From assembly GCF_000381045.1 (NCBI RefSeq), contig NZ_KB905733.1:1-49788 (forward strand): a stretch of DNA of 49,788 nt, written 5' to 3'. Positions 20,827 to 32,545 of the stretch are shown here, piece by piece. Positions within the stretch are counted from its first letter, which is position 1; each line of letters opens with the position of its first letter. This DNA is from Thermus scotoductus DSM 8553 (lineage in GTDB: Bacteria; Deinococcota; Deinococci; Deinococcales; Thermaceae). A program made the translations under genes and the position numbers. The notes under the pieces were generated by a model, which saw nothing but the letters and a program-made list of their open reading frames with translations, had not been told where the DNA came from and did no database searches.

Positions 20827-20871
20827 GGTTCCATCTTAGACAAGGGCCACCGGGACAAATGCCCCAGAGGG

Positions 20872-28453: not shown

Positions 28454-28543
28454 CCTCCTCCAAGCCACGTCTGGGAGTACCTAAGGAGCACAATAGGGCG
28501 AGAAGGGGTTAGCTCCGCCATAAAACACTCTAAAATGGCAGGG

Positions 28544-29311
28544 ATGCGCCTAGGTTTCAGTCCCTTCAATGCGGAGATGGGCTATGAGGAAGCCTTCCGC
28601 CTGGCGGCGGAACTGGGGCTGGACCTCGAGGTTCCCTACGACTTGCACGAGGTCCTGCCCCTTCCCGACGCCAAGACCTTGCGGGCCACGGGGGAAGCCC
28701 TGGGGGTGGGGTTCACCCTGCACCTTCCCTTCGTGGAGATGAACCCAGCCAGCCTCATCCCCAGCGTCCGTGCCTTGGCCGAGGAGCGCCTCAAGCGGGC
28801 CCTGGAGTTTGGCGAGGCCCTGGGGGCCAAGGTGGGGGTCCTCCACACCGGCCAGGTACCCGTGCGCCACCCCATGGCCATAAGCCTGGCCCGGGAAGCC
28901 TTGGAAAAGACCCTTTCCGCCCTCCTCCCCCTTCCCTTCCCCGTGGCTTTGGAAAACCTGGCCCTTGCCGAGGAGGATCTCCTCCGGGGCCCGGAGGAGC
29001 TAAGGGCCCTCCTGGACCGCTTCCCCCAGTACGGGTTCTGCCTGGATGTGGGCCACGCCCTGGTGGAGCTAGGTCCCCTGGGTCCTTTCCTCTACTGGGA
29101 GGCCCTGGGAGACCGGCTCATCCACCTGCACCTCCACGACAACCACGCCCGCCGGGATGACCACCTGCCCGTGGGCACGGGAGCCGTGCCCTGGGAAAGG
29201 CTGGCCCCCCGGCTGAGGAGCTTCCCTGCCACCGCGGCCCTCGAGGTGGGTGGGAACATCCAAGGAGTACGCCAGAGCCTTTCCCGTCTGCAGGCCCTCC
29301 TTGCCTCCTAA
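28544..29311 (+). CDS. Sugar phosphate isomerase/epimerase-like TIM-barrel protein
   Basis: 255 residues of the xylose isomerase-like/AP endonuclease 2 superfamily. Metal-ligand segments typical of the fold are visible: HLPFVEMNP early, ALENLALAE in the middle, CLDVGHALVE, LHLHDNHARRDDH and AALEVGG near the C terminus. The natural reaction is not evident. ATG 28544 is preferred over ATG 28535, because TAAAAT (28531-28536) overlaps the latter and ends 7 nt before the former. The gap between repeat copy 3 and this gene (28454-28530) contains nothing recognisable. Confidence 0.85.
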   Translation: MRLGFSPFNAEMGYEEAFRLAAELGLDLEVPYDLHEVLPLPDAKTLRATGEALGVGFTLHLPFVEMNPASLIPSVRALAEERLKRALEFGEALGAKVGVLHTGQVPVRHPMAISLAREALEKTLSALLPLPFPVALENLALAEEDLLRGPEELRALLDRFPQYGFCLDVGHALVELGPLGPFLYWEALGDRLIHLHLHDNHARRDDHLPVGTGAVPWERLAPRLRSFPATAALEVGGNIQGVRQSLSRLQALLAS

Positions 29312-29313
29312 GC

Positions 29314-29333
29314 CTCCCCTTTCATAAGGGGGG
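29314..29333 (+). terminator. Hairpin after the isomerase gene
   Basis: An 8-bp stem (29314-29321 with 29326-29333, one wobble) and TCAT loop directly after the stop codon. No T-run follows, so termination is uncertain. Confidence 0.4.
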
Positions 29334-29358
29334 ACATCTGTCCTTGCCAGGGTACGCT

Positions 29359-29364
29359 TATAGT
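29359..29364 (+). promoter_or_regulatory. -10 box of the fbc operon
   Basis: TATAGT predicts transcription from about 29371. The leader would then be only about 38 nt and would consist almost wholly of the two competing hairpins 29373-29388 and 29385-29404. No good -35 hexamer is seen. Confidence 0.5.
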
Positions 29365-29372
29365 AGTGGAGT

Positions 29373-29404
29373 GGGGGTTTGTACCCCCCCTTCACAAAGG
29401 GAGG
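29373..29404 (+). promoter_or_regulatory. Mutually exclusive hairpins covering the fbcC ribosome binding site
   Basis: Hairpin A pairs GGGGGT (29373-29378) with ACCCCC (29383-29388). Hairpin B pairs the C-run plus TT (29385-29392) with AAGGGAGG (29397-29404), which includes the Shine-Dalgarno GGGAGG. The C-run is shared, so A and B exclude each other. This is a fold inferred from sequence, with no ligand or sensor implied. Confidence 0.45.
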
Positions 29405-29408
29405 CAGA

Positions 29409-30137
29409 ATGGTCGTAGACCGGATTGAGGTGTACCTGGATGGGGCCAGCGAGCCCCTGGCGGTTCTGAAGGAGCCCCCTTACCGGCTAAACCTAGACAC
29501 CCGAAAGATCCCCGACGGGGAGCATGTCCTGCGGGTGGTAACCCACTTCCGCGGCGGAGGCCAGGAGGTCCGAGAAATCCCCTTCACCGTTAACAACTAC
29601 CCCGATGTGATGGTCCTGGGCCTGGACGAGAGGGGCGAGGTGGCGGGGACCCTCGAGCTCCGCCTGGCTGTGGGCGAGCCTGAGCTTCCCGTGGAACCGG
29701 TCCGCTTCAACCCCATCTGGTACGTGGTGGCCTCGGTGGTCGTACTGGGCGGCATCTGGGCCTACTTCGCCCTTTCTCCAGCAACGGAGAAAGTGGTAAC
29801 CGAGCTAGCCCCTCCGGCCCAGGAAGCCCAAGCCCCTAAGGAAGGAGGCAGCCAGGCCACAGCCAGCGTGGACCCGGCCCTCATGGAAAAGGGTAAGTCC
29901 ATCTACGAGGCCAACTGCGCCGCCTGCCATGGGGCAGACGGCCAGGGAATGCCCCCGGTTATGCCTGCCCTGGCGGGCAACGCCAACCTAAAGGACGCCC
30001 AGATGATCCTTAGCGTCGTAAAGAACGGGCGCGGGGCGATGCCCCCGGTGGGAGCCGCCTTCTCGGAAGAGGAGCTCAAAGCCGTGGCCACCTACATCCG
30101 CAACAGCTTCGGCAACAACTTCGGCCCGGTGGAATAA
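29409..30137 (+). CDS. fbcC: Cytochrome c subunit of the bc complex (FbcC)
   Basis: 242 residues. The N-terminal 95 residues form a predicted beta-rich domain (VDRIEVYLDG, DGEHVLRVVTHFRG), followed by one membrane segment at about 103-122, an Ala/Pro/Glu-rich linker, and a c-type cytochrome domain with haem-binding CAACH (C170, C173, H174) and a candidate axial Met in MPP near the C terminus. It is the membrane-anchored cytochrome c of the menaquinol:cytochrome c oxidoreductase and faces the periplasm. The gene heads fbcCDFB. Its GGGAGG ribosome binding site can be hidden in a hairpin. Confidence 0.92.
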   Translation: MVVDRIEVYLDGASEPLAVLKEPPYRLNLDTRKIPDGEHVLRVVTHFRGGGQEVREIPFTVNNYPDVMVLGLDERGEVAGTLELRLAVGEPELPVEPVRFNPIWYVVASVVVLGGIWAYFALSPATEKVVTELAPPAQEAQAPKEGGSQATASVDPALMEKGKSIYEANCAACHGADGQGMPPVMPALAGNANLKDAQMILSVVKNGRGAMPPVGAAFSEEELKAVATYIRNSFGNNFGPVE

Positions 30138-30150
30138 GGAGGGCTAAGGC

Positions 30151-30633
30151 ATGTACCGCAACGACCCCATCGTACCCACCTTCGCCCTCATCCTGGCCGC
30201 AGGCCTCTTCTACATGGCCTACCTGGATGGGCTCCACATCGTCCGCCTCCTGGGCCACGTTCCACAAAAGCTTTCCGTGGGCCAGATTGGCCTCATGGCC
30301 TTTGGCGCTGTCTTACTCCTCTACGGACTAATCGGCCTGGTCTCCTACTGGCTGGAAGGGATAGAGCTTCGCCCTGGCCGCCATTTCCCCACTCCCTCCA
30401 CCGCACCGGTAGCGGTGGGTGTGGTCCTGGTTCTTCTCCTCACCGCCCTCTCCGGTTTCTTTGTGCGCCTTCTCGTTTACGCCGCCCAGACCGGGCATAA
30501 CCCCACCTGGCTCCAGGGCTTTGTCTTCGGAACCATCAGCCTAGTGGTAGCCGCCCTTTTGGGCATTTACAAGAAGTTCTTCGGCCGGGACGAGGTGATC
30601 ACCGAGGAGGAGAAGAGCCACTTCCCCTGGTAA
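30151..30633 (+). CDS. fbcD: Membrane subunit FbcD of the bc complex
   Basis: 160 residues with four predicted membrane helices (about 8-29, 45-68, 88-113 and 119-138). It lacks known cofactor motifs. A small integral membrane protein at this place is the FbcD subunit in the Thermus fbcCDFB operon; its role there is structural or unknown. ATG 30151 follows AGGAGG with good spacing, 13 nt after fbcC. Confidence 0.88.
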   Translation: MYRNDPIVPTFALILAAGLFYMAYLDGLHIVRLLGHVPQKLSVGQIGLMAFGAVLLLYGLIGLVSYWLEGIELRPGRHFPTPSTAPVAVGVVLVLLLTALSGFFVRLLVYAAQTGHNPTWLQGFVFGTISLVVAALLGIYKKFFGRDEVITEEEKSHFPW

Positions 30634-30643
30634 GAGGTGAAGC

Positions 30644-31273
30644 ATGGACGAACGCGAGATTCGCTTGCAAAGATCCCGCAGGCGGCTTTTCCTGAAGACC
30701 GCCATCGGTACCGGCATCGGCCTCTCCTTGGTTTCCGCCTTCTACGTGGGGGCGAGCCTGCGCCCCAAGGCCGAGGTCACCCCGGAGAAGGAACCCCTGA
30801 AGCCGGGAGACATTCTGGTTTACGCCCAAGGCGGGGGTGAGCCTCAACCCATCCGCCCTGAGGAGCTCAAGCCCGGCGACCCCTTCGTTCTGGCCTACCC
30901 CATGGACCCCAAGACCAAAGTGGTGAAAAGCGGCGAGGCCAAAAACACCGTCCTGGTGGTGCGCTATAACCCCGAGGAGCTCGCCCCCGAGGTGGCCCAG
31001 AACGGGGTGGAAGGGATCGTGGCCTACTCCGCCGTCTGCACCCACCTGGGTTGCATCGTGAGCCAGTGGGTGGCGGACAAGAAGGCAGCCCTTTGTCCCT
31101 GCCACGGTGGAATCTATGACCTCGCCCGCGGAGCCAGGGTCATCGCTGGCCCCCCGCCCAGGCCTGTACCCCAGCTTCCTCTTATGGTGGAAGGAGGCGT
31201 CCTGGTGGCCGCCGGGGAGTTCCTGGGCGAGGTGGGGGTGAAGGCGGAAGCCGCTTTCTACCGTCATGTCTAG
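30644..31273 (+). CDS. fbcF: Rieske iron-sulfur protein of the bc complex
   Basis: 209 residues. The N terminus has twin basic residues followed by a hydrophobic anchor ([19 protein letters not shown]), consistent with Tat-dependent insertion with a retained helix. The [2Fe-2S] site is complete: CTHLGC gives ligands C132 and H134 and disulfide C137, and CPCH gives ligands C151 and H154 and disulfide C153. It moves electrons from menaquinol to cytochrome c. It starts 10 nt after fbcD with AGAGGTGAAGC before the ATG. Confidence 0.96.
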
Positions 31274-31282
31274 GAGGGAAGC

Positions 31283-32542
<1,260 letters not shown>

Positions 32543-32545
<3 letters not shown>

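Follow-up and report, generated by a model that had tools for sequence, protein, structure and literature searches.

Among the closest described systems is the DnrS/DnrT control of respiration in nitrate-respiring Thermus thermophilus, in which the CRP-like protein DnrT is reported to activate nar and dnr and to repress fbc and nqo (PMC5748679), and dnrST is reported to be part of a mobile denitrification element (PMC5748679, PMC6282519). Denitrifying T. thermophilus strains are reported to be without homologues of FNR and NarX/NarL (PMC6282519). For the Thermus CRP-family regulators SdrP (TTHA1359) and TTHB099, the published consensus is AWTGTRA-N6-TYACAWT and TGTR...YACA. Members of Thermus and related genera serve as model organisms in the study of respiratory complexes.

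The window analyzed here is a 49,788-nucleotide stretch from Thermus scotoductus DSM 8553 that carries the fbcCDFB genes of the bc complex (Table 1). A sequence-only reading had described the gap upstream of fbcC as a small mobile inverted-repeat element that supplied a promoter and a switch-like leader with two exclusive hairpins. The best explanation of our results is instead a conserved promoter in which a palindromic box is the putative operator of a respiratory regulon and hairpin A forms the mRNA 5′ end; we put its probability at roughly 0.7.

Table 1. Features of the fbc promoter-leader and neighboring genes, in window coordinates.
Feature	Position	Strand	Remarks
Xylose-isomerase-like TIM barrel protein, upstream neighbor	28535-29311	+	Pfam AP_endonuc_2; adjoins fbcC in Thermus loci
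Left hairpin CCCCTT-TCAT-AAGGGG	29312-29334	+	Left inverted end of the sequence-only reading; overlaps start of box
14-bp form of the box, GGGACATCTGTCCT	29331-29344	+	
Palindromic box GGACATCTGTCC	29332-29343	+	Putative operator of a respiratory regulon shared across the family
-10 element TATAGT	29359-29364	+	15 bp downstream of box; invariant in 22 distinct Thermus leaders
Hairpin A, possible outer extension	29366-29371 / 29390-29395	+	
Approximate transcription start	29371	+	Placed solely from the -10 position (7 nt after the -10)
Hairpin A, GGGGGU UUGU ACCCCC	29373-29388	+	Arms (as DNA) GGGGGT 29373-29378 and ACCCCC 29383-29388; -11.5 kcal/mol at 37 °C; predicted mRNA 5′ end
Hairpin C (extended hairpin B), UUUGURCCCC.../GGGAGGCAGA	29378-29408	+	Encloses SD and SD-to-AUG spacer
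Hairpin B	within 29385-29404		Contains SD GGGAGG; -7.9 kcal/mol
Shine-Dalgarno (SD) GGGAGG of fbcC	29399-29404	+	Invariant in genus
fbcC, bc complex cytochrome c subunit	29409-30137	+	Pfam Cytochrom_C / Cytochrome_CBB3
fbcD	30151-30633	+	ORF; no Pfam match
fbcF, Rieske	30644-31273	+	ORF; Pfam Rieske
fbcB, cytochrome b	31283-32545	+	ORF; Pfam Cytochrome_B

Architecture and inheritance of the fbc promoter-leader

The gap separates the isomerase stop at 29311 from the fbcC ATG at 29409. fbcC was found in all 50 family genomes searched, and the box, the -10 element, hairpin A and the SD are conserved across 27 Thermus genomes; in Thermus the stretch reads GGGACATCTGTCC TTGCC...CTTATAGT. The sequence-only reading was right to call this the promoter-leader of fbcCDFB, as the genus-wide retention of the -10, leader and SD bears out, and the TATAGT -10 that it proposed is present. 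A consensus scan for a -35/-10 pair recognized no -35 at the fbc promoter, and a sigma-70 pair was rejected on this basis. The left hairpin was also considered as an intrinsic terminator of the isomerase gene; this was rejected, as it has no T-run, gave no match in the scan and is not conserved. No usable mapped 5′ ends for Thermus came out of a search of the open-access literature.

The mobile-element proposal is a MITE-like small element that brought in both promoter and leader. Its starting point was a gap bounded by related inverted ends, and the 22-nt terminal arms (29312-29333 and 29384-29405) are indeed 73% complementary, a degree reached in only 2 of 300 shuffles of the gap. The arms also match as direct repeats (71%), because each is itself a C-run/G-run palindrome. 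However, conservation does not extend to the left end: most Thermus species lack the left arm or carry an altered one, although the interior, between the palindrome and the ATG, is kept, so the inverted-repeat element is not confirmed as a unit. The 92-bp stretch has one copy in this genome and one in each of 26 related genomes, at the orthologous place between the isomerase gene and fbcC across Thermus, and no target duplication was seen around it. Multiple copies within this genome or its relatives, and terminal inverted repeats kept between copies or orthologues, were both sought as marks of a MITE and not found. Copies outside fbc were what the sequence-only reading had itself named as decisive, and the search of Thermus genomes gave none beyond fragments of ≤25 nt at E ≥ 0.08. 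A MITE-like origin is refuted on that count, and we regard it as extremely improbable. The results show that the gap at 29312-29408 has been inherited vertically and is a promoter-leader present in a single copy.

A genuine insertion is seen at this promoter in one genome (G026, locus L023), where a DDE-transposase element, whose inverted ends CTGAGCTCTCATCACTT match and which has an apparent 9-bp target duplication GTCGTATAG, lies inside the -10 of the fbc promoter. It leaves TATAGT beside the leader and moves the box to 1.26 kb from the ATG (1260 bp from box to fbcC ATG). Far from supplying the promoter, this insertion disrupts it. It also represents a natural mutant in which box and promoter are separated.

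Conservation of the palindromic box

The palindrome at 29332-29343, absent from the sequence-only reading, is the most widely conserved part of the gap. The box GGACATCTGTCC precedes fbcC in every Thermaceae genome whose region was read, and in only one of them is it displaced, by an insertion sequence. Outside Thermus, GGGACATTTGCCC or a close variant stands before fbcC in 22 of 22 loci read, similarly 13-15 bp from a TANNNT -10, and the family consensus of the box is GGGACATnTGtCC.

The spacing between box and core promoter is likewise fixed, at N13-15 to TANNNT. The composite GGGACATTTGNCC-N13-15-TANNNT has 48 matches in 50 genomes, against none for the reversed control. The palindrome GGACATNTGTCC occurs one to six times per Thermus genome; at 71 further sites of this palindrome, from 26 genomes, TANNNT lies at N14 in 34, at N13 in 8 and at N15 in 3, with counts at other distances mostly 0-2 and at most 7. 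These data show the hallmark of the promoter to be a 12-14 bp palindrome followed, after 13-15 bp, by a TANNNT -10, without a recognizable -35. The box string was not found in the open-access literature searched, including PMC5748679 and PMC6282519.

Genes downstream of the box

The same palindrome lies upstream of functionally related operons. Among the 71 further sites, 23 were classed as preceding the ActA-type multihaem cytochrome of alternative complex III, 13 precede dnrS (a GAF regulator), divergent from narC, seven precede a sulfite-oxidase-type molybdopterin oxidoreductase and three a conserved protein without assigned identity; about 20 are unclassified, some of them inside genes. 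A cytochrome cd1 gene is also among the genes downstream of the box, and a SCO1-type gene follows it in six Meiothermus-like genomes (Pfam confirmed one). In the present genome, exact boxes precede a cytochrome c and sit between narC and dnrS, and a box with one mismatch precedes a PCu(A)C copper chaperone. Such a set of genes is what one would expect a respiratory regulon to contain, and the same box at the same spacing is shown to precede several respiratory and respiratory-assembly operons across the Thermaceae.

Boxes outside fbc mostly lie at N14 from a TANNNT. Sites on the narC side and those at the sulfite-oxidase-like gene and a branched-chain-amino-acid-type binding protein are without an N14 -10 in the direction of the gene, and more than one mode of action among box sites is therefore likely.

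Several individual sites deserve mention. The narC-dnrS gap (L064 1549-1600, G000:C9) holds two boxes 40 bp apart between the divergent genes, the second of which (GGGACGTCTGTCC) is 13 bp from a TATACT before dnrS. On the minus strand of the window, at 20853-20864, a one-mismatch box GGGCATTTGTCC with a correctly spaced TAAGAT precedes an ORF of 139 aa that has no Pfam match and is a possible further regulon member. A further box (G000:C12:33482; L066 1683) lies inside an apparently broken cytochrome c reading frame.

Structure of the leader

Hairpins A and B are both present where the sequence-only reading had placed them, but the exclusivity claimed for them is not strict, because the minimum-energy fold from 29371 contains both hairpin A and a shorter SD hairpin, CCUUC/GGAGG. 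The fold of the whole gap is stronger than that of shuffled sequences (z -2.7), while 54 of 200 shuffles fold as well as the leader taken by itself from 29371 (z -0.56). Folding energies favor hairpin A. A covariance-model search of the leader against Rfam gave no match up to E = 5, and a known Rfam leader family was rejected accordingly.

Covariation was assessed in an alignment of 22 distinct Thermus leaders (A1), and covariation proved weak for the extended form of hairpin B and absent for hairpin A. For hairpin A, taken with its outer extension, 93.9% of cells are paired, and covariation does not go beyond that of shuffles, 129 of 500 scoring as high. Plain hairpin B, which likewise lacks covariation, is interrupted at a single position in 8 of the 22 leaders and was rejected as a conserved form of SD sequestration. 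In hairpin C, 95.0% of cells are paired and 2 of 500 shuffles reach its covariation score; its three doubly changed cells all belong to one pair and come from three sequences, two of which are closely related.

Structured fbc leaders recur in the family, as two further cases indicate. The nearest other genus (L061) has a hairpin at the same place with a new outer arm, CUUGUG/CACAAG, and the sister genera have a different leader in which UGGUA..CUUG can pair around the SD and start codon, with 90.5% of cells paired and a score reached by 0 of 500 shuffles. In alignment A2 (for example L098 and L089, both Meiothermus-like), the invariant UGGUA is able to pair with the AUGCC start, and a partly covarying hairpin lies beside the SD. 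In alignment A3, of 12 Meiothermus-like leaders, a GC hairpin resembling a terminator, with TTTT behind it, lies a short way downstream of the box-linked -10; next comes an extended -10-like TGGTAGTCT, and the arrangement is a possible second promoter or early attenuator.

These observations bear on a two-state RNA leader, in which SD sequestration by hairpin B or C would be opposed by a releasing hairpin A and the balance set by temperature, transcription speed or a bound protein. Retention of both pairings in 94-95% of cells in the 22 leaders, the score of the extended SD hairpin and the sister-genus enclosure of SD and start codon (9 doubly changed cells versus 4.8 in shuffles, 3 of 500 having as many) all speak for such a switch. 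Yet most of the conserved pairing is uninformative, because the C-run and SD are invariant, and the single covarying pair of hairpin C, the missing covariation of hairpin A, the interrupted plain hairpin B, the compatibility of hairpin A with the short SD hairpin and the lack of an Rfam match all weigh against it. As to the suggested temperature response, predicted SD accessibility at 70 °C rises to 0.6-0.9 in most main-group species and stays at 0.3-0.5 in several others; the SD would be mostly open in many species, as with any weak hairpin, and nothing is specific to a thermometer. Our preferred reading of hairpin A is that of a structured 5′ end; a two-state switch is possible, and we consider it unlikely.

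Alternatively, the long dyad GTGRRGTGGGG-N6-CCCCNCTTCAC (29366-29395) may act as a DNA operator over the start site and not as an RNA hairpin. Its outer left half directly follows the -10 and is possibly untranscribed, yet GTG/CAC is invariant. The changed outer arm in L061, where the hairpin itself is kept, and the absence of the dyad from other box promoters argue against this role, which we hold to be quite improbable.

Discussion

The reading that we prefer, a conserved promoter with the box as putative operator, would place a dimeric DNA-binding protein on the box, covering the position where a -35 would lie. Such a protein may adjust fbc transcription in step with that of the remaining cytochrome-linked chain. 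An activator contacting RNA polymerase is favored because the spacing is fixed and the -35 is missing; repression by occlusion would be the alternative, and a repressor is possible. Transcription is predicted to start near 29371, and hairpin A would therefore form the mRNA 5′ end, where it would most simply protect the message and compete with the weak pairing between the C-run and the SD.

The presence of the box before fbcC throughout the family makes a chromosomal regulator its more likely primary partner. One candidate is an orphan LiaR/NarL-type response regulator, a single protein that 48 of the 50 Thermaceae genomes retain at 81-100% identity; of the exceptions, one is a genome of 84% completeness in which it was missed, and the other has only a 45% match. 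Its identification as DosR was rejected, since PDB matches rank LiaR/VraR first. The CRP-family proteins of this genome are candidate binders as well. More broadly, a single undescribed regulator may control the quinol-oxidizing complexes (bc complex and alternative complex III), the copper-assembly factors of cytochrome oxidase and anaerobic reductases throughout the Thermaceae via GGGACATnTGTCC in place of a -35, with mobile nitrate-respiration regulators acting at the same boxes; this model is tentative, and we give it somewhat less than an even chance.

A fixed-spacing operator common to complex III, alternative complex III, SCO1/PCuAC and denitrification genes provides a short list of promoters. 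The box could also serve as a bait sequence for the direct identification of the candidate regulator, and it offers a concrete DNA site at which mobile nitrate-respiration regulators may meet the host fbc promoter.

Known systems resemble this locus in part. The fbc leader shares with bacterial 5′ mRNA hairpins and RNA thermometers a hairpin at the predicted +1 and a weak SD pairing that, by prediction, would melt on heating, but it matches no known family. The box, a short inverted repeat near a promoter, is similar to the dimer-bound CRP/FNR operators of Thermus (TTHA1359/SdrP and TTHB099); however, its sequence, GGGACAT-n-TGTCCC, is unlike their consensus, and assignment as an SdrP/TTHB099 operator was rejected because the published TGTRA-N6-TYACA differs. 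Its center would also lie about 9 bp nearer the start than in class II CRP sites. The DosR/DevR box, a NarL/LuxR-type response-regulator box, has the layout GGGAC-N4-GTCCC. The Thermaceae box presumably shares this 14-bp layout, which we take as a lead only, and the orphan Thermaceae regulator differs in being nearer to LiaR/VraR than to DevR. The DnrS/DnrT system of T. thermophilus likewise has the fbc operon as a target, and the dnrS/nar promoters carry the box. In contrast to dnrST, which is reported to reside on a mobile element, the box occurs at fbc throughout Thermus as well as in other genera.
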